Source: Chloroflexota bacterium (lineage in GTDB: Bacteria; Chloroflexota; Anaerolineae; Anaerolineales; Villigracilaceae). Taken from it: a DNA stretch of 8,453 nt. Made by a program: the position numbers and the translations under genes. This document shows, piece by piece, positions 1,287 through 8,453 of this stretch (position 1 is the stretch's first letter; the number at the start of each line of letters is the position of its first letter). Below the pieces are notes generated by a model, which made no database searches, had not been told where the DNA came from, and saw only the letters and a list, made by a program, of their open reading frames with translations. The DNA lies in the NCBI GenBank assembly GCA_021796315.1, contig JAJYOH010000243.1:1-8453 (forward strand). The letters are read 5' to 3'.

Positions 1287-1314
1287 TTGACATTATCAAT
1301 TTAATAATTATAAT
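1287..1314 (+). promoter_or_regulatory. Promoter of the DUF2089/SHOCT-like operon
   Basis: TTGACA at 1287-1292 and TATAAT at 1309-1314 are both exact consensus hexamers, 16 bp apart. Transcription should start around 1321, giving a leader of about 85 nt ahead of the DUF2089 gene. Both hexamers being perfect suggests a strong promoter that may need a repressor. Confidence 0.8.
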
Positions 1315-1325
1315 ATCCTCATAAA

Positions 1326-1351
1326 TTGAAATATAATTTCAAGAATTTCAA
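1326..1351. promoter_or_regulatory. AT-rich inverted/direct repeat cluster, candidate operator
   Basis: TTGAAAT (1326-1332) and ATTTCAA (1336-1342) form a 7-bp inverted repeat with a 3-base gap. A second ATTTCAA follows at 1345-1351. The cluster covers the expected +5 to +30 region of the operon promoter, where a bound protein would block clearance. The DUF2089 protein encoded just downstream has a helix-turn-helix and is the natural candidate ligand, but that is inference. Confidence 0.45.
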
Positions 1352-1404: not shown

Positions 1405-1785
1405 ATGTATCCTGCTCTTACGCTTTGTCCGGTTTGCAAAAATGAGATGAATGTAACCCGGTTGCATTGCCCGTCTTGTGAAACGGTTGTGGAAGGCCGT
1501 TTCGCGGCGGGACATTTTGCAAACTTGTCTCAGGAACAACTTGATTTTATCTTCACGTTCGTGCGCTGTGAAGGCAAATTGACTCGTGTGGAAACCGAGT
1601 TGGGTATTTCGTACCCAACTATTCGGAATCGTTTGCATGAAGTAATCCGTGCTTTGGGTTACGAGCCTGGCAAGGATGAATCGCCTGAAGTCAGCGATGA
1701 GAAACGGCGCGTGGTTCTTGAAGATCTGGATGCAGGCAAGATTTCACCTGATGATGCCATGCGGATTTTGCGCGGTGAGGAGTGA
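1405..1785 (+). CDS. DUF2089 zinc-ribbon/helix-turn-helix regulator with SHOCT-like tail
   Basis: This 126-residue protein starts with a zinc ribbon, Cys8/Cys11 (CPVC) and Cys22/Cys25 (CPSC), which matches the DUF2089 family. Residues ~40-85 are helical and contain a likely helix-turn-helix (LTRVETELGISYPTIRNRLH), so DNA binding is expected. The last ~30 residues (from VSDEKRRVVLEDLDAGKISP) are a SHOCT-like two-helix module, also found in the next three genes. The start is supported by AAGGAGG seven bases upstream. It is the first gene of the operon, and the next ATG follows its stop by 3 bases. It is probably a transcriptional regulator of its own operon. The family has no firmly established function, so the regulatory role is inferred from its domains. 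Confidence 0.88.
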   Translation: MYPALTLCPVCKNEMNVTRLHCPSCETVVEGRFAAGHFANLSQEQLDFIFTFVRCEGKLTRVETELGISYPTIRNRLHEVIRALGYEPGKDESPEVSDEKRRVVLEDLDAGKISPDDAMRILRGEE

Positions 1786-1788
1786 ATC

Positions 1789-2544
1789 ATGACCACTCGA
1801 ACTTTATCCATCGGCCCTGAACCTGAAATCGAGATCGAACTCATTGGTGGTGATTTGTTAGTTGCAGGTTGGGAGCGGAATGAAATCGCGATAGATGGCG
1901 ACGATCTGGATGAAATGGGGCAGAACAACGAATCTGTCAGCATATCGTGTGGAGGCGATTTGAAACTCTCCGTGCCGCGCGGTGCAGAGTTTGTCATTGG
2001 TCACATTGGCGGTGATCTAAAAATGGAGAACCTTACCGGCTCAATTGAGCTTTCCCTTGTTGGCGGCGATGTGCTTTTACGAAACCTGAGTGGCAATGTC
2101 GCGCTGACCGGATCGATTGGCGGCGAAATGAAAATGGAAAACGTCAGCAAGATCAGTATGAACGCCGGCAGGGGAATGCCCGTTGGCGATATTTCCGAAA
2201 AAGTGCGGCGTAAAGTTGAAGCGGCCACTCGTCGCGCCGAGAAGAAGATTCGCGCTGCCGAACACAAAATACATCGGGCCGAATTCATTGCTGTGGAGCG
2301 TAAAGTACGGCATAGTATCCCGCCAATTCCTCCCATTCCCCCGATCCCTCCAATTCCGCCAATCCAGCATCGAGAGTCAAAGTCGCGGCGTTGGAACTTT
2401 GGCTTCGATGCCTCTGGTACTCCCGAAGCCAGCCAACGAGTTTCGGATGAAGAACGGATGACGATCTTGAAAATGCTCCAGGAGAAAAAGATAACATCTG
2501 AAGAGGCCGATAAATTATTGGCCGCCCTTGAAGGAGGCTCATAA
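1789..2544 (+). CDS. Cytoplasmic GGD-repeat (beta-solenoid-like) protein with IPP tract and SHOCT-like C-terminus
   Basis: This 251-residue protein has no signal peptide or membrane helix. Residues ~1-120 carry a repeat marked by GGD/GGE at 20-22, 55-57, 74-76, 92-94 and 111-113. From residue 55 the period is 18-19, with alternating hydrophobic residues typical of a beta-solenoid or DUF4097/YvlB-like fold. Residues ~137-175 are highly charged and helical. Residues 177-192 are five IPP triplets. Residues ~218-249 (SDEERMTILKMLQEKKITSE) are the SHOCT-like module. It overlaps the next gene by one base (TAATG), a sign of translational coupling. It may be a scaffold whose tail pairs with the matching modules of its neighbours. 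Its function is unknown, and the YvlB/LiaX resemblance is in architecture only. Confidence 0.85.
   Translation: MTTRTLSIGPEPEIEIELIGGDLLVAGWERNEIAIDGDDLDEMGQNNESVSISCGGDLKLSVPRGAEFVIGHIGGDLKMENLTGSIELSLVGGDVLLRNLSGNVALTGSIGGEMKMENVSKISMNAGRGMPVGDISEKVRRKVEAATRRAEKKIRAAEHKIHRAEFIAVERKVRHSIPPIPPIPPIPPIPPIQHRESKSRRWNFGFDASGTPEASQRVSDEERMTILKMLQEKKITSEEADKLLAALEGGS
2317..2364 (+). repeat. In-frame 9-bp repeat coding for five Ile-Pro-Pro units
   Basis: Five successive ATY-CCN-CCN units encode IPPIPPIPPIPPIPP, followed by Ile. The codons differ at third positions between units (CCG, CCA, CCT, CCC), so this is not a fresh slippage tract and selection probably keeps the protein repeat. It would form a stiff polyproline-like spacer between the charged helix and the C-terminal module. 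Translation through it may depend on EF-P. Confidence 0.85.
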
Positions 2545-3182
2545 TGTCTTCTGAAGAGCAGAAACAGATTCTTAAGATGGTCGAAGATGGCAAGATCAGC
2601 GCGGAAGAAGCGATGAAGCTGATCAAAGCTCTGGAAGAATCTGACGTGGAGATGGAGATCATCGAAGCGGCGCCCGCCTCCTCGTCCGGGCCCGAAGCGG
2701 ATTCAACATCCTCAAAAGCCAATGCACCTGAATTCGAAGAGGTTGCACACAAGGCCAAGCGTCTGTGGCGGATCCCGCTGTGGTTTGGCGTTGTCATCAC
2801 TGTCCTTGCATCTTATTGGCTTTATTCACTCGTGCAAACATCCAATTATGGTTTTTGGTTTTTCTGTGCGTGGATGCCGCTTTTATTCGGTATATTGCTG
2901 CTGGCTTTATTCGCCGGCAGTCGGACTTCACGCTGGTTGTATGTAAAAGTGGAACAGGGCAAAGATGAGTGGCCGCGTAATATCACACTCGGCTTTCCGC
3001 TTCCTCTTGGGCTGGTGAGCTGGTTCTTGCGTAATTTTGGACACAACATTGAGGGCTTGGGAAATACAAACTTGGATGAAGTCATCAGACTCGTGTCTGA
3101 TGGCATTTCATCCAAGGAGCCGCTGATCGTGAACGTGGACGAGGGCCAAGGCGGCGATAGAGTGCAGGTTTATATCGGGTAG
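2544..3182 (+). CDS. Two-helix membrane protein with N-terminal SHOCT-like module
   Basis: 212 residues. Residues 2-33 (EEQKQILKMVEDGKISAEEA) are the SHOCT-like module. Residues ~34-70 are an acidic, low-complexity linker. Membrane helices are predicted at ~78-97 and ~102-124, joined by a very short loop, so both ends should face the cytoplasm. Residues ~130-212 form a domain that recurs in the next protein: WLYVKVEQ, then FPLPLGL, then LIVNVDEGQGGDRVQVYIG. The start overlaps the upstream stop by one base and is preceded by GGAGG in the end of that gene. I do not recognise a named family. The layout suggests a membrane anchor that recruits soluble partners through the SHOCT-like helices. Confidence 0.85.
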   Translation: MSSEEQKQILKMVEDGKISAEEAMKLIKALEESDVEMEIIEAAPASSSGPEADSTSSKANAPEFEEVAHKAKRLWRIPLWFGVVITVLASYWLYSLVQTSNYGFWFFCAWMPLLFGILLLALFAGSRTSRWLYVKVEQGKDEWPRNITLGFPLPLGLVSWFLRNFGHNIEGLGNTNLDEVIRLVSDGISSKEPLIVNVDEGQGGDRVQVYIG

Positions 3183-3191
3183 GAGGCAGTT

Positions 3192-3575
3192 ATGGCAAAC
3201 GCAGAAGAACGAATGAAAATTCTGAAGATGATCGAAGAGGGGAAGATCAGCGCCGAAGATGGCGCTAAATTGTTGGCAGCCCTGAGCGAGGGACGGCGCG
3301 GCCCGGGCGGGCAGAGCCCGTCTCGCACGGCGGGAGCAGGGCATTGGCTTCGCATCCGTGTGACGGATACTGTGACAGGTCGTTCAAAAGCATCCGTGCA
3401 GATTCCACTTGGGTTGATCGATGCCGGTATGAAGATCGGCGCGCATTTTGCCCCCGAAGTGGAAGGCGTGGACATGTCTCAGATGATGGATGCTTTGCGT
3501 TCCGGCGTGACAGGCAAGATCATCGATGTGGTCGATGAAGAAGACGGCGAGCACGTTGAAATTTACGTTGAATAA
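3192..3575 (+). CDS. Small soluble protein: SHOCT-like module plus a domain shared with its neighbour
   Basis: 127 residues, no membrane helix. Residues 3-33 (AEERMKILKMIEEGKISAED) are the SHOCT-like module. A Gly/Arg/Pro-rich linker follows (34-50). Residues ~52-127 match the C-terminal domain of the preceding membrane protein: WLRIRVTD aligns with WLYVKVEQ, IPLGL with FPLPLGL, and IIDVVDEEDGEHVEIYVE with LIVNVDEGQGGDRVQVYIG. It therefore looks like a paralogue of that gene without the membrane insert. AGGAGG precedes the ATG, which lies 9 bases after the upstream stop. It probably works with, or competes with, the membrane form. Function unknown. Confidence 0.85.
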   Translation: MANAEERMKILKMIEEGKISAEDGAKLLAALSEGRRGPGGQSPSRTAGAGHWLRIRVTDTVTGRSKASVQIPLGLIDAGMKIGAHFAPEVEGVDMSQMMDALRSGVTGKIIDVVDEEDGEHVEIYVE

Positions 3576-3610
3576 ATACGTATTAGAAATACAAATATTA
3601 GAGTACGTAT
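3575..3610. promoter_or_regulatory. Repeated TACGTA/TATTAGA motifs before the first MFS gene
   Basis: The 55-bp gap between the four-gene block and the first transporter is AT-rich and internally repeated. AATACGTATT (3575-3584) is a perfect palindrome and TACGTA recurs at 3604-3609. TATTAGA occurs at 3581-3587 and 3596-3602. This could be an operator for a TetR- or MarR-type regulator of the exporter. No convincing -35/-10 pair accompanies it, so readthrough from upstream is also likely. Confidence 0.35.
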
Positions 3611-3630: not shown

Positions 3631-4944
3631 ATGACCGAAACAACTGCTCAATCTATCGCCACAACTAATCCGATGAAGCGGGTATTTGGAATTCGCGACT
3701 TCCTCCTGCTTTGGATCGGCCAGGGCACATCGCTGCTCGGCGACCAGTTCAACATGATCGCGATGGCTTGGCTGGTGCTGCAAATGACCGGTGATCCACT
3801 GGCGCTAGGTGCGGTCATGGCATTAGCGGGGATTCCACGCGCAATCTTTACCTTGATTGGCGGCGCCATCACTGACCGCATCTCACCGCGTAGAGTAATG
3901 CTTATATCGGATTTTATCCGACTGTTTCTCTCGGCTTCGCTGGCAACGCAGATATTGACCGGTACGTTGCAGGTATGGATGATCTACGTGTATAGCTTGG
4001 CGGCTGGGATCTTTTCGGGCGTATTTGAGCCTGCTGCAATGTCGATTACTCCGCGGATTGTACCGTCTGAAGATTTGCAAACAGGCAATTCGTTGATGCA
4101 GGGGAGTATGCAACTGATCGGGTTTATAGGGCCTGCCGCGGCCGGGATAATGATCGCCATGTTCCCGAATGAAAGAGTCGGCATCGGATTGGCTATTGCT
4201 TTCGATGCGCTGACCTTTGCAGTCTCGGTAATCACATTGTGGATGATGAAGTCCGGAGGCGAAGTCGTTGCAGCTGCGCCCAAAAATGGAGAAGTTGTCA
4301 GCGTGTTTCAATCGATTTGGGAGGGGATCGTCTTTATGTTCAGGGACCCGGTATTGCGCACAGTGTTCATCCTGATCGCGGTAGCTAACTTTGCATTTGG
4401 CGGCCCTGTGATTGTCGGCGTGCCTTATCTTGCAGATACGCGCTTTCCCGAAGGCGCTGCGGCTTATGGCCTGATCATTTCAGGCTTTGCCGGCGGTAAC
4501 TTGTTGGGCGTGATTCTTTCAGGTGTACTGCCGAAATTATCGAAACGGCTCTTCAAGATTTTGATGGTCGTGATGTTCGTGTTGTTCGGTGTGGGACTTG
4601 GTGCACTGGTATGGATCAACCATACTGGAGTAGCGGTTGTGGATATGTTCATCTTGGGCGTGCTGAATGGCTACATAAGCATTTTGTTGATTACCGGGCT
4701 ACAGCGCAATTCGCCCAAGGAAATGCTCGGACGCCTGATGAGTATGATCGTGCTCGCCAACCTGGGGTTGGTGCCGCTTTCACAGGCAATTTCCGGTGCG
4801 GTGCTACGCTGGAATATCTCGCCGGTGTTTTTTGTGGCAGGTGGAATGTTGTTGGCCTGCGCCATTTATTTATCCGTGCCAGGCATCAGTTCTTTGCTGG
4901 CTGATCATTTCGTGGGCGAATCTTCTGATGTCGTATCACTTTAG
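3631..4944 (+). CDS. MFS efflux transporter (12 TM, MFS_3/macrolide-efflux type)
   Basis: 437 residues, mostly hydrophobic with about 12 membrane segments, the usual length for a drug/metabolite:H+ antiporter of the major facilitator superfamily. After a short cytoplasmic N-terminus, helix 1 begins near IRDFLLLWIGQGTSLLGDQF. The loop between helices 2 and 3 has the MFS motif A form GGAITDRISPRRVM (residues ~77-90). The ATG at 3631 is chosen because earlier in-frame codons run into the upstream gene and give an unnatural hydrophilic extension. Its ribosome site is weak, so translation may depend on upstream ribosomes. ATG 3673 is an alternative start. It follows the four SHOCT-like genes by 55 bp on the same strand and precedes a second MFS gene. 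The substrate cannot be told from sequence; export of an antibiotic or other toxic compound is the family expectation. Confidence 0.9.
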   Translation: MTETTAQSIATTNPMKRVFGIRDFLLLWIGQGTSLLGDQFNMIAMAWLVLQMTGDPLALGAVMALAGIPRAIFTLIGGAITDRISPRRVMLISDFIRLFLSASLATQILTGTLQVWMIYVYSLAAGIFSGVFEPAAMSITPRIVPSEDLQTGNSLMQGSMQLIGFIGPAAAGIMIAMFPNERVGIGLAIAFDALTFAVSVITLWMMKSGGEVVAAAPKNGEVVSVFQSIWEGIVFMFRDPVLRTVFILIAVANFAFGGPVIVGVPYLADTRFPEGAAAYGLIISGFAGGNLLGVILSGVLPKLSKRLFKILMVVMFVLFGVGLGALVWINHTGVAVVDMFILGVLNGYISILLITGLQRNSPKEMLGRLMSMIVLANLGLVPLSQAISGAVLRWNISPVFFVAGGMLLACAIYLSVPGISSLLADHFVGESSDVVSL

Positions 4945-4975: not shown

Positions 4976-5017
4976 ATGTGCTTTTACTACCTGAGTGTAA
5001 CCAGATGTCTGATGTAA
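4976..5017 (+). other. Possible 13-codon leader ORF overlapping the second MFS start
   Basis: ATG at 4976 opens a 13-codon ORF (MCFYYLSVTRCLM) ending in TAA at 5015-5017. AAGGACAGGA (4961-4970) gives it good ribosome-binding spacing. It overlaps, in another frame, both possible starts of the second transporter (GTG 4978 and ATG 5005). It may be a leader peptide that couples or attenuates translation, as seen with some antibiotic exporters. It may equally be chance, with the same ribosome site serving GTG 4978. Confidence 0.25.
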
Positions 5018-6360
5018 CAAAACGCCCCAGCGGCATGTTCGGTTTTACCATTGTGTGGCTGGGGCAGATCATTTCGTTCCTGGCCAGCGGTATGACGGCC
5101 TTTGCAATGACGATCTACATTTATCAGCAGACTAAATCCGCGACTGCAATGGGGTTGGTGCAGGTGGCGTACATCACACCCTTCCTGATCATGTCTCCGA
5201 TTGCGGGCGTGATGGTGGATCGGTACAACCGCAAGCTGATGATGATGATCAGTGACATCGCAAGCGGGCTGGCTACCTTGAGTTTGTTTATTTTGTACAC
5301 GACAGGCCACTTGCAATACTGGCATCTTTACTTGGCCGTGGCGGTATCAGGCATTGGCACGACTTTTCAATGGCCGGCCTACTCGGCTGCGATCAGTGTC
5401 ATGATTCCCAAGGAACAATATGGGCGGGCCAACGGCATGATGTCGTTGATCGAGGCGGGCCCAGGCGTGGTTGCTCCGCTGCTGGCTGGAATGTTGATTC
5501 CGCTTATTCAGATTGGCGGGATTCTACTGATCGATTCGATCACCTTTGGAACAGCCATTCTTGCCTTGGCAGCAGTTTTTATCCCTCAACCGCCGCCCAC
5601 ATCAGAGGGACAGCAATCCAAAGGAGGCTTTTTGAAGGAGGCCTGGTTCGGTTTCAAATATATCTTTGAGCGCCCCAGTCTCCTCGGCCTGCAAATGGTG
5701 TTCTTCTTCGGTAATCTATTTAGTGGGATTGCCTTCAATGTTTTGGCGCCGATGATCTTGGCGCGCACAGATCAAAGCACAATCGCTCTTGGTTCGGTTC
5801 AATCGGCCGCATCGATCGGTATGGTTATTGGAGGAGTTATCATGAGCGCTTGGGGCGGATTTAAACAACGCGTTCATGGCGTATTATTGGGTTGGATGCT
5901 GACAAGCATGGGAGGCATGATCCTCTTTAGTTTGGGCCGCGGATTGCCGATTTGGATTCCCACTGCATTGATCGGTAGTTTGTTTTCTCCGCTTGTTAAT
6001 GCTTCCAATCAGGCCATCTGGCAGGCGAAAGTTGCTCCCGATTTACAAGGACGTGTCTTTTCTGCTCGCCGTCTGATCGCCTGGTTTACCAACCCCATTT
6101 CTCCCATCATTGGCGGGACTCTGTCAGACTTTGTTCTGGAGCCCGCCATGAAAAATTCAGGGAGTGGCCTGGCCCATATTTTTGGTTCCGTGTTCGGGTC
6201 CGGATCTGGAAGCGGGATAGCGCTTCTGTTCTTTTTGTGCGGCATCTGTGCATTTCTCGTCGGTCTGAGCGGATATTTTATACCTGCCATTCGTAACGCG
6301 GAAAGTGTTTTACCCGATCACGATGCTTTGCCTGCAGTTGACGCTGTTCCTGCCGATTAG
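4978..6360 (+). CDS. Second MFS efflux transporter
   Basis: Up to 460 residues with about 12 membrane helices. Motif A appears as GVMVDRYNRKLMMM at ~77-90. A Gly/Ser-rich stretch (FGSVFGSGSGSG) sits before the last helix, and the C-terminal tail is acidic. The sequence clearly differs from the preceding transporter, so this is not a recent tandem duplicate. Start choice: GTG 4978 has AGGA seven bases upstream. ATG 5005 gives a more natural N-terminus (MSDVTKRPSGMFGFT) but has no ribosome site, and both remain open. The gene lies 33 bp after the first exporter on the same strand and is followed by a terminator, so it closes the transcription unit. Substrate unknown; probably efflux, possibly paired with its neighbour. 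Confidence 0.9.
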   Translation: MLLLPECNQMSDVTKRPSGMFGFTIVWLGQIISFLASGMTAFAMTIYIYQQTKSATAMGLVQVAYITPFLIMSPIAGVMVDRYNRKLMMMISDIASGLATLSLFILYTTGHLQYWHLYLAVAVSGIGTTFQWPAYSAAISVMIPKEQYGRANGMMSLIEAGPGVVAPLLAGMLIPLIQIGGILLIDSITFGTAILALAAVFIPQPPPTSEGQQSKGGFLKEAWFGFKYIFERPSLLGLQMVFFFGNLFSGIAFNVLAPMILARTDQSTIALGSVQSAASIGMVIGGVIMSAWGGFKQRVHGVLLGWMLTSMGGMILFSLGRGLPIWIPTALIGSLFSPLVNASNQAIWQAKVAPDLQGRVFSARRLIAWFTNPISPIIGGTLSDFVLEPAMKNSGSGLAHIFGSVFGSGSGSGIALLFFLCGICAFLVGLSGYFIPAIRNAESVLPDHDALPAVDAVPAD

Positions 6361-6762: not shown

Positions 6763-6924
6763 TTATAGACAACATTCGATCTTCGTTTCCGGCTTCTTGA
6801 AGGCGCGCACCAAAAGGAGCACTCCAAACGCGATCAGCAGGATTTCAAAGATGGGAATTTCAAACGGCAGGTTTAGGATTTCACGTTTATCTCCTGTGAA
6901 GATGGGTCGGTTCAGGAACTGCAC
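6763..6924 (-). CDS. Small single-helix membrane protein ending in CysCys (start uncertain, possibly frameshifted)
   Basis: From GTG 6924 a 53-residue ORF reads MQFLNRPIFTGDKRE, then a hydrophobic stretch (LNLPFEIPIFEILLIAFGVL), a basic segment (RAFKKPETK) and the ending IECCL. That start overlaps the end of the AhpD-like gene by 13 bp and has GGAGGG six bases upstream. There is a puzzle. A better ribosome site (AGGAG at 6895-6891) sits six bases before GTG 6884, but that frame stops after three codons. One extra A in its AAA run would join it to the hydrophobic frame and give MKILNLPFEIPIFEILLIAF, a very natural N-terminus. The gene may therefore be frameshifted, or hit by a homopolymer error. 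No family recognised. Confidence 0.5.
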   Translation of the reverse strand: MQFLNRPIFTGDKREILNLPFEIPIFEILLIAFGVLLLVRAFKKPETKIECCL

Positions 6925-7172
6925 CCGCACCCCTCCGCCGCTTCGCCCGCGGCGGAGGGGACAGCTTGGCCAAGGCTCGCGGCGAACTTGTCCATTTTGG
7001 CTGACGCGCCTTTTCGGACCATTCTGCCGATTTCAACCGCGTCCGCGATCTCCTGTTCGTCGGCTCCGCTTTCCGAAGCCTTCTTGACGTGATACTGCAA
7101 GCACGGCTGACAGTTCGCGGTGATGGACGCTCCGACCGCGATCAATTCTCCAATTCGATTGTCGAGTTTCAT
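6912..7172 (-). CDS. AhpD-like / carboxymuconolactone decarboxylase-family CxxC protein
   Basis: 86 residues. The AhpD active-site pattern E-x11-C-x2-C-x3-H is complete: Glu9, Cys21, Cys24, His28 (NCQPCLQYH). AhpD proteins use this pair as a thiol peroxidase or disulfide reductase. This one is a short single-motif member, the size of small carboxymuconolactone-decarboxylase-like proteins that oligomerise. The tail is Ala/Gly-rich and ends EGCGCSS, adding Cys82 and Cys84, which could bind metal or arsenite. AAAGGA lies nine bases before the ATG. It follows the ECF sigma gene by 55 bp on the same strand, a pairing known for several ECF groups. A role in redox or thiol stress is likely, but the substrate is unknown. 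Confidence 0.88.
   Translation of the reverse strand: MKLDNRIGELIAVGASITANCQPCLQYHVKKASESGADEQEIADAVEIGRMVRKGASAKMDKFAASLGQAVPSAAGEAAEGCGCSS
6930..6960. repeat. 12-bp GC-rich perfect inverted repeat covering a ribosome-binding site
   Basis: Arms 6930-6941 and 6949-6960 (CCCCTCCGCCGC and its complement) are perfect, with a 7-base loop. In the minus-strand RNA this hairpin lies inside the last codons of the AhpD-like gene. Its second arm contains GGAGGG, the only ribosome site for GTG 6924. It is too far from a T-run to be a terminator. It looks like a translational-coupling device. Confidence 0.7.
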
Positions 7173-7227
7173 GATATTGTTTCCTTTCTGACCTTATAGA
7201 CGGAGCAGGACAGAAAAGGATACATCC

Positions 7228-7800
7228 CTATCGCGCAGCCGCTTTCACGCTACACGGCATTTCCTCGATCCAGTACAGCTCACAATTGGCTTCGAGTTTT
7301 TCCTTCAATTTTGCCTTTGCCCGATGAAGCCTGATCTTGACGGTATCCAACGAGACGCCGAGGATTGCGGCAATTTCGCTGTTCTTGATTCCTTTGTACT
7401 CGCTCAGCACCAGTACGGCTCGGTAGTCATCTGGAAGTTTTTCGATGTAGCCCCGAATGCAGTCGTTCATTTCGTCCCGAATAAGTTCCTTTTCGATGGG
7501 AGGCTTCTGTCTGTCGGCAATCTTCGCTTTGTCGGTTTCATCGGAGATGGACACCTGCTCCACCCGCTGAAAGGACGGCTGGCGCATTTTGTCCAACGCG
7601 GTGTTCGTGGCGATTCGGTAAATCCACGTGGACAGTTGCGCCTCGCCGCGAAAACTTCCCAGCGACTGGTGCACTTTGACGAACGTCTCCTGCGTCAGGT
7701 CTTCCGCATCTTGCTCGTCCGCCAGGCGCGTCAGATAACGAAGGATTTTTGGCTGAAAGGTTTCGTAGATTTGCTGGAAGTCGGTCTCGCTGGCGTTCAT
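7228..7800 (-). CDS. ECF-type RNA polymerase sigma factor with Cys-containing C-terminal tail
   Basis: 190 residues with the two-domain ECF layout. Region 2 spans ~8-75 (DAEDLTQETFVKVHQSL, then STWIYRIATNTALDKMR). A charged linker follows. Region 4 spans ~113-167, with the helix-turn-helix IKNSEIAAILGVSLDTVKIR and the basic end LHRAKAKLKEKL. After region 4 there is a short tail with Cys173 and Cys183 (ANCELYWIEEMPCSV). No anti-sigma factor is encoded nearby in the window, so the tail cysteines may sense redox state or metal directly. The ATG at 7800 has GGAG nine bases upstream, and TGG just before it. The gene lies 60 bp after arsM with a large palindrome between them, and is followed by the AhpD-like gene. 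It probably drives this cluster. Confidence 0.93.
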   Translation of the reverse strand: MNASETDFQQIYETFQPKILRYLTRLADEQDAEDLTQETFVKVHQSLGSFRGEAQLSTWIYRIATNTALDKMRQPSFQRVEQVSISDETDKAKIADRQKPPIEKELIRDEMNDCIRGYIEKLPDDYRAVLVLSEYKGIKNSEIAAILGVSLDTVKIRLHRAKAKLKEKLEANCELYWIEEMPCSVKAAAR

Positions 7801-7818
7801 CCACTTTTACTCCGAAAC

Positions 7819-7853
7819 AGGTGACAGTCACTTCTTAAAAGTGACTGTCACCT
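7819..7853. repeat. 15-bp perfect inverted repeat made of two GTGACwGTCAC palindromes
   Basis: AGGTGACAGTCACTT (7819-7833) and its exact complement (7839-7853) flank a 5-base loop. With one bulged T the stem extends through GAAAC/GTTTT. Each arm itself holds an 11-bp palindrome, GTGACAGTCAC (7821-7831) and GTGACTGTCAC (7841-7851), centred 20 bp apart. It starts 7 bp after the arsM stop and lies 18 bp before the sigma ATG. It may be the arsM terminator, a REP-like dispersed repeat, or a tandem operator. Confidence 0.8.
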
Positions 7854-7860
7854 TGTTTTA

Positions 7861-8453
7861 CTACACGGGCTTGTATGCCGTGATCTTGGCGCTGAAGACG
7901 GCCTTGTAGACATCCTCACGAGCGATGGTCTTGAGTTCGATGGCGTCTTTCATATCATCCAATGCGGAGTCAACAGTCTCCTTGTCAAAGAAGACGGGGT
8001 TGATTGAAATGTCCGTGAAGCCGACCGTTTCCATCATGCCGATGTAATCCTTCGCTTCGACCGCGCCCGCCACGCATCCCGCCCATGCACTCAAACTTTT
8101 TTTGATCGCATCGGGCAATGGGCCGTCGGTGACAATGTCAGATACAGCAAGTCTGCCGCCGGGTTTGAGCACGCGGAAGGCTTCGCCAAAAACTTTGGAT
8201 TTATCGGGCGAAAGGTTGATGACACAATTTGAAATGATGACGTCCACGCTGTCCGCGTCGACCGGCAAATCTTCGAGATAACCCTGACGGAATTCCACGT
8301 TGTCGAGATTCAACCGCTTCGCGCTGGACGTGGCGCGTTCGATCATTTCGGGAGTCATGTCCACGCCGATGACGTGTCCCGTCGCGCCGACTTTTTTCGC
8401 GGCGAGGAAGCAGTCGAGTCCCGCGCCGGAGCCAAGAGCGAGCACGGTCTGTC
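7861..8453 (-). CDS. arsM: Arsenite S-adenosylmethionine methyltransferase ArsM (5' end outside the window)
   Basis: ArsM methylates As(III) using SAM in the cytoplasm, giving mono- to trimethylated arsenicals. The last 196 codons are visible. The SAM-binding motif I is LGSGAGLDC, followed by VIGVDMTPEMIERA. Two family arsenic-binding cysteines are present: SNCVINLSPDK and WAGCVAGA, exactly 50 residues apart, as Cys174 and Cys224 are in characterised ArsM. The first cysteine of the triad (Cys72 in the family) would lie upstream, outside the window. The C-terminal domain ends KITAYKPV with stop TAG. The frame stays open to the last base, so the ATG-like codon at 8445 is an internal GTG, not the start. 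The gene heads the visible part of the minus-strand cluster with the ECF sigma factor. Confidence 0.92.
   Translation of the reverse strand, partial: QTVLALGSGAGLDCFLAAKKVGATGHVIGVDMTPEMIERATSSAKRLNLDNVEFRQGYLEDLPVDADSVDVIISNCVINLSPDKSKVFGEAFRVLKPGGRLAVSDIVTDGPLPDAIKKSLSAWAGCVAGAVEAKDYIGMMETVGFTDISINPVFFDKETVDSALDDMKDAIELKTIAREDVYKAVFSAKITAYKPV

Follow-up and report, generated by a model that had tools for sequence, protein, structure and literature searches.

Could a short helical module carried by a putative regulator, a beta-solenoid protein, a membrane protein and a small soluble protein join these four proteins into one signalling system? This question is raised by a locus of a Chloroflexota bacterium of the Villigracilaceae (NCBI GenBank assembly GCA_021796315.1). 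The window, i.e., the whole stretch of DNA analysed, covers positions 1 to 8,453 of contig JAJYOH010000243.1. Four consecutive genes of its forward strand encode a DUF2089 protein recognized by its Pfam matches (P1, 1405..1785), a short Toastrack-type beta-solenoid protein assigned from a predicted model and an alignment (P2, 1789..2544), a membrane protein identified by Pfam, BLASTP and a profile match (P3, 2544..3182) and its soluble paralogue, identified by Pfam, a profile match and a model (P4, 3192..3575). An earlier note proposed that a module common to the four acts as a docking element, through which the state of the envelope would control the DUF2089 regulator and possibly the exporters encoded downstream.

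A Module Shared by Four Consecutive Genes

The helical hairpin common to P1–P4 corresponds to the Pfam family SHOCT-like_DUF2089-C (PF22746). The scores of P2, P3 and P4 (35.8, 45.7 and 45.3 bits) all exceed the curated cut-off of 27, whereas P1 stays under it with 18.5 bits. Despite this low score, the homology of the P1 module is supported because it is recovered by a leave-family-out profile. Such profiles, built without the tested protein family and without the window and used with a threshold of 10 bits, gave 16.9, 32.7, 36.3 and 46.7 bits for P1, P2, P3 and P4 of the window. They were applied to 81 loci, namely the window and 80 relatives kept out of 337, where the threshold is exceeded by 74 of 81 P1, 80 of 80 P2, 79 of 79 P3 and 74 of 74 P4 proteins. 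Among the 10,558 open reading frames (ORFs) of these loci, the threshold is passed by four others, which encode 46–78 amino acids (aa) and lie inside the same operons. Free-standing ORFs of 46–54 aa, with hardly anything besides the module, are found right after P2 in L022 (8760-8924), L025 (11496-11639) and L076 (10469-10609).

The motif as literally written in the earlier note has 12 specified positions, all of which are fitted by P2 and P3 and 11 by P1 and P4. For each protein, the observed score was reached by none of 2000 shuffles, and the best score among the 157 other stop-to-stop frames of the window (at least 30 aa) is 6. The module is C-terminal in P1 and P2 and N-terminal in P3 and P4; it is modelled as a two-helix hairpin in P4 (residues 2-33) and P2 (residues 220-248). 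The claim that four consecutive genes carry the same module at the ends indicated is confirmed.

It should be emphasized that this module is concentrated near DUF2089 genes. In 15 Chloroflexota genomes, picked by the authors mostly for their long contigs, 34 of the 40 PF22746 matches over the cut-off lie less than 6 kb from DUF2089. Of the weaker matches, under the cut-off with E up to 0.1, 12 lie inside this distance and 11 outside.

The lack of a conserved gene order, which according to the earlier note would have refuted its reading, is not observed among these relatives, P1-P2-P3-P4 being complete, in the same order and on the same strand, in 72 of the 81 loci. Among the 80 relatives kept out of 337, the closest one by P1 (94%) is a Chloroflexi metagenome-assembled genome; the others are mostly Anaerolineae/Anaerolineales, some are assigned to Chloroflexi only and one is a Herpetosiphon. 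Seven of the nine incomplete loci hit a contig end, either within 89–209 bases (L008, L044, L058 and L078) or after an MFS (major facilitator superfamily) gene that follows P3 (L027, L047 and L069). The two others truly differ: L029 is devoid of P2, and in L024 P3 is reduced to a 78-aa remnant that has the module and the domain end, its transmembrane part being gone. A second Toastrack gene follows P4 in L006 (14073-14960; DUF4097, 75.1 bits) and belongs to a cluster also found in L003 and L054.

Architecture of the Four Proteins

P1 consists of a zinc ribbon (residues 8-39), a helix-turn-helix (HTH) domain (41-87) and the C-terminal module (97-126). The first two exceed the Pfam cut-offs (PF22747, 53.4 bits; PF09862, 75.2 bits).

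In P2, a beta-solenoid (residues 2-124) is followed by a long helix, a Pro-rich linker and the C-terminal module (219-249). The predicted model has twelve strands in residues 2-124, with a pLDDT (predicted local distance difference test) mostly above 90 and of 80.6 for the whole model, which supports the solenoid scaffold announced earlier. The Toastrack family DUF4097 (PF13349) gave no Pfam match on P2 of the window; it is matched by 12 of the 18 aligned members of the P2 family. When the fold was compared with the PDB, the best match was 4ygu (E 3.2e-3), none reaching 1e-3 or better. P2 has 251 aa, the median over 80 loci being 367; its solenoid is shortened and its module kept. It is also short in L001, L002 and L009.

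P3 comprises the N-terminal module (2-32), two predicted transmembrane helices, in line with the membrane protein expected among the four, and a C-terminal domain common with P4. Basic residues flank the transmembrane hairpin (KRLWR before, SRTSR after). Such basic flanks are related to the cytoplasmic side by the positive-inside rule; their presence on each side of the hairpin suggests that both termini of P3 are cytoplasmic.

P4 carries the N-terminal module (3-33), a linker and a C-terminal beta-beta-alpha-alpha-beta-beta domain, with no transmembrane helix. Its model is moderately sure (pLDDT 73.6) and its fold has no convincing match in the PDB (best E 0.29). In the same way, profile searches gave no convincing solved relative (best E 0.72 for P4 and 0.23 for P1).

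In BLASTP comparisons of P3 with P4, the module and the C-terminal domain both align (E 2e-9 and 2e-5), and a profile-profile match covers nearly all of P4 (E 5e-24), the transmembrane hairpin appearing as a gap. Judging from these alignments, P3 is P4 with a transmembrane hairpin inserted and the two are plain paralogues. The idea of four proteins joined by a tag therefore holds for the common module; it does not hold for P3 and P4 as otherwise unrelated proteins, their whole C-terminal domains matching.

Exporters Embedded in the Operon

The gaps between P1, P2, P3, P4 and the two following MFS genes are 3, -1, 9, 55 and 33 bases, the start of P3 and the stop of P2 overlapping by one base. 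MFS transporter a (3631..4944, forward strand) and MFS transporter b (4978..6360, forward strand; true start perhaps nearer 5005) are both above the Pfam cut-offs of MFS_1/MFS_3; their scores with drug-specific NCBIfam models are far below the cut-offs. A scan found no terminator-like site in the 55 bp between P4 and MFS a. Within this gap, positions 3576-3610 contain ATACGTAT and TACGTAT about 20 bases apart, a possible second operator.

MFS genes were counted in 62 of the 81 loci, those that extend at least 1.5 kb to either side, using a profile made from the operon's own MFS genes (E 1e-15), with which other MFS types are perhaps undercounted, in the background too. An MFS gene belongs to the same-strand run in 43 of these 62 loci versus 0 of 372 genes more than 4 kb away; 12 of the 19 loci left out, including the window, also carry one in the run. 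These genes fall into three clusters and occupy three positions: immediately ahead of P1, after P3 and before P4, and after P4. Of the 73 loci holding both P3 and P4, 26 have an MFS gene between the two (in L022 it lies between P2 and P3), and in 36 of the 81 loci a member of the MFS b cluster follows the module genes. MFS exporters are thus frequent members of the operon, which fits the exporter link of the earlier note, while their control is something that we infer.

Wider Distribution and Probable History

DUF2089 was detected in 160 of 251 sampled Chloroflexota genomes, over the cut-off in 153. A broader set was made with one region per genome from 120 of these 160 genomes, some of which (e.g., L001, L073) also belong to the 80 loci. 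P3 is present in the gene run of 14 of these 120 regions. The 106 others have P2 in 68 cases, P4 in 44, both in 28 and MFS in 16, and 11 of them have P1 without any labelled partner. The core that is widespread across Chloroflexota is soluble. MFS genes were found in all 14 regions with P3 versus 16 of the 106 without it.

In this broader set, the module is C-terminal in all 89 P1 where it was detected; the 53 P2 proteins with a detected module have it at the C-terminus (48), at the N-terminus (3) or inside (2). Of 58 such P4 proteins, 51 carry it at the N-terminus and 7 inside; for the 14 P3 proteins, these numbers are 11 and 3. Inside positions may reflect start codons called too far upstream. 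The DUF2089 loci L211, L214 and L224 encode a Toastrack protein with an N-terminal module, in the manner of YvlB. In L150, L153, L161, L186 and L188, a protein of 243-264 aa with an N-terminal module is encoded directly upstream of DUF2089.

Within the first 80 of the broader regions, a subset that does not include the 30 best-scoring DUF2089 places, the regions devoid of P3 have 92 unlabelled neighbours in the gene run; Pfam searches with 65 of them revealed no dominant partner (DUF4097 in 5, amino acid permease in 4 and ABC permease in 3 of 65).

Four of the eight plasmid records with DUF2089 were examined (H1, H2, H6 and H7). In three of them, from Niallia and Paraclostridium (Bacillota) and Embleya (Actinomycetota), DUF2089 is followed by a P4 homologue; the profile found no module on the Embleya DUF2089 protein. 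The fourth, from Phocaeicola, encodes a DUF2089 protein of 93 aa on which no module was seen, followed by a membrane protein. A tblastn search for P4 in plasmids gave no match. The Bacillota loci L191 (5252-5533) and L192 (5348-5644) have an additional, third small gene whose product, on visual inspection, looks like the C-terminal domain of P4 minus the module.

In a FastTree phylogeny with 119 P4 domains, the 86 C-terminal domains of P3 form one clade (support 0.98). Since they group together in this way, we infer that the older core would be made of DUF2089, P4 and the Toastrack protein, P3 being a later addition.

Relationships with Known Systems

A 2024 study of the phage-shock response outlines a Toastrack-centred four-gene context with DUF2089 and SHOCT-like domains, splits DUF2089 into a zinc ribbon, an HTH and a SHOCT-like domain, and reports SHOCT-like domains at either end of the partners (PMC11237479). 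As its section on this context also proposes a Lia-like signalling for Toastrack/DUF2089, the locus is of an already described kind. The likeness includes a DUF2089 protein with a C-terminal SHOCT-like domain encoded beside a Toastrack gene. The differences concern the partners, which are LiaI-LiaF-TM, B-box or PspC there and, in the window, a paralogue of P4 carrying a transmembrane hairpin, as well as the presence of the module on all four members and the embedded MFS exporters. The main text of PMC11237479 contains none of the terms MFS, major facilitator, CorA and Anaerolin; three features read here from the genomes seem to go beyond that main text, namely the paralogy of P3 and P4, the limited distribution of P3 and the MFS genes embedded in the operon.

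LiaX starts with the same kind of SHOCT-like domain, and its match with P3 is insignificant (E 0.12). In liaXYZ of E. faecalis, LiaX works with the PspC-type LiaY (PMC11601895). In yvlABCD of B. subtilis, which is linked to envelope stress, the Toastrack protein YvlB has SHOCT-like domains at its N-terminus and acts with small membrane proteins (PMC9239133, PMC11237479); two-hybrid assays show that YvlB interacts with PspA, LiaH and Yvl proteins (PMC9239133). These systems differ from the window by their PspC or holin-like partners and their control by sigma-W or LiaFSR; the portions of these papers that describe them do not mention a DUF2089 regulator.

The SHOCT domain itself (Pfam PF09851) is a separate family without a match in P1–P4 at E up to 1. 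As the module studied here, it is short, has two helices and occurs at either end of many proteins (PMC3581485). Finally, leaderless bacteriocin clusters such as those of enterocin DD14 and bawcin encode a short DUF2089 protein next to membrane and export genes (PMC7332713, PMC10707071). These proteins have 89-98 aa and ABC or PH-domain partners, and the descriptions of the clusters in these articles mention neither the module nor Toastrack.

A Possible Membrane-Linked Switch for Exporter Genes

Although SHOCT-like hairpins occur widely, we are not aware of any function established for them. The locus offers a small complete set for the docking-tag question, each of the four core members bearing the hairpin, which is otherwise rare in the genome. 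If it is a docking tag, a class of uncharacterised operons of environmental bacteria that combine a regulator, a Toastrack protein and exporters could be read as another means of sensing the envelope, besides two-component systems.

With a probability of about 0.5, the operon could be a Lia/Yvl-like stress switch close to the membrane and acting on efflux genes, with no PspA gene in the window. The hairpins would hold the regulator P1, the scaffold P2 and the membrane paralogue P3 together beneath the membrane. A membrane or drug signal would alter this assembly and thereby free or activate P1, which would raise the expression of the operon, including the exporters.

Co-variation of the modules was evaluated by partial Mantel tests on module distances in the 72 four-gene loci, holding the four protein bodies constant (300 permutations). 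The P2 module co-varies with those of P3 (partial r 0.18, 0 of 300 permutations) and P4 (0.19, 1 of 300); the P3-P4 value (0.05) is not notable.

Several points weigh against such a switch. The P1 module displays no partial co-variation (P1-P2 -0.11, P1-P3 0.01, P1-P4 0.06), and the co-variation of the other pairs is a hint only, given the six pairs compared, the kinship of the loci and the liberal character of the partial Mantel test. A published SHOCT domain failed to oligomerise a fusion protein, which was a monomer (PMC3581485); this speaks against self-pairing, not against the pairing of different modules. As 106 of the 120 broader regions lack P3, a link to the membrane is not a general feature. 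No Pfam match to PspA, PspC, LiaI-LiaF or B-box was found among the ten window proteins scanned. The run is MFS-free in 19 of 62 loci according to the operon-derived profile, and the association of MFS with P3 may arise from kinship alone. A dyad and k-mer search upstream of P1 in 79 loci revealed no trustworthy shared palindrome that could be a common operator; it returned mainly promoter-like and Shine-Dalgarno-like words (top dyad count 4 versus a shuffle maximum of 3). What stands of the earlier interpretation is therefore the conserved unit, the solenoid, the membrane protein and the exporter link. Docking by the modules and envelope sensing do not share this standing: the absence of P3 from most broader regions counts against a general envelope model, and the SHOCT monomer and the lack of P1 co-variation count against simple self-docking.

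A serious though somewhat unlikely alternative is that the proteins are assembled indirectly, as would result from the anchoring of SHOCT-like domains in a membrane leaflet proposed in the discussion of such domains in PMC11237479. The monomeric state of the published SHOCT domain agrees with it, as does the lack of a transmembrane helix of their own in P1, P2 and P4 (hydropathy count, broader loci). However, P3 already owns a transmembrane hairpin, and a module found mostly at one locus per genome, with 34 of 40 over-cut-off matches near DUF2089, suits partner-specific docking better than general membrane anchoring.

A variant of the docking reading, which appears unlikely, would be a titration switch in which P3, in the membrane, and P4, in soluble form, compete for the C-terminal tags of P1 and P2. 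The P3:P4 balance, or a signal acting on their common C-terminal domain, would then set whether P1 is membrane-bound or free to act on the exporters. Titration fits the fact that only opposite-end pairs, P2-P3 and P2-P4, co-vary; the opposite-end pairs with P1 (P1-P3 and P1-P4) do not, which counts against it.

It is quite improbable that the modules are relics of duplication acting as separate folding caps, the genes being linked as a regulator and its efflux targets without any complex. Such relics would agree with the plain paralogy of P3 and P4, with the mobility of the module (of 53 P2 proteins, 48 have it at the C-terminus, 3 at the N-terminus and 2 inside) and with its free-standing 46-54 aa forms in L022, L025 and L076. 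However, the module is retained in divergent loci (P1 C-terminus, 89 of 89 where detected) and survives the loss of a large part of the P2 solenoid (251 aa versus a median of 367).

Very improbably, the locus would serve divalent-cation or general envelope homeostasis by way of a divergent CorA gene rather than drug efflux, with MFS genes as passengers: in 52 of 81 loci such a CorA gene is located upstream, less than 5 kb away, and in 33 of 78 it is the immediate upstream neighbour, but it may, like the LexA gene near 54 of 81 loci, simply reflect old synteny, the CorA gene of the window is broken while its module genes are intact, and three MFS clusters are involved at three positions.

Flanking Sequences of the Window

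Ahead of the operon, a consensus scan detected a candidate sigma-70-type promoter on the forward strand (TTGACA-16-TATAAT, 1287..1314); it matches the consensus at 12 of 12 positions, which by itself is no proof of use. Just 3' of it lies a 17-bp palindrome without strand assignment (TTGAAAT-ATA-ATTTCAA, 1326..1342), matched in 0 of 200 shuffles. It is a possible operator, though a weak candidate as it is absent from the leaders of the 17 relatives compared.

On the reverse strand, the CorA-like gene (734-1255) matches residues 1-174 only of a 328-residue relative, and the ORF that begins at 1255 stops at 974, as in a broken copy. At the other end of the window (6912-8451, reverse strand) are encoded an AhpD-like protein, an ECF (extracytoplasmic function) sigma factor and an arsenite-methyltransferase-like protein truncated by the window end.

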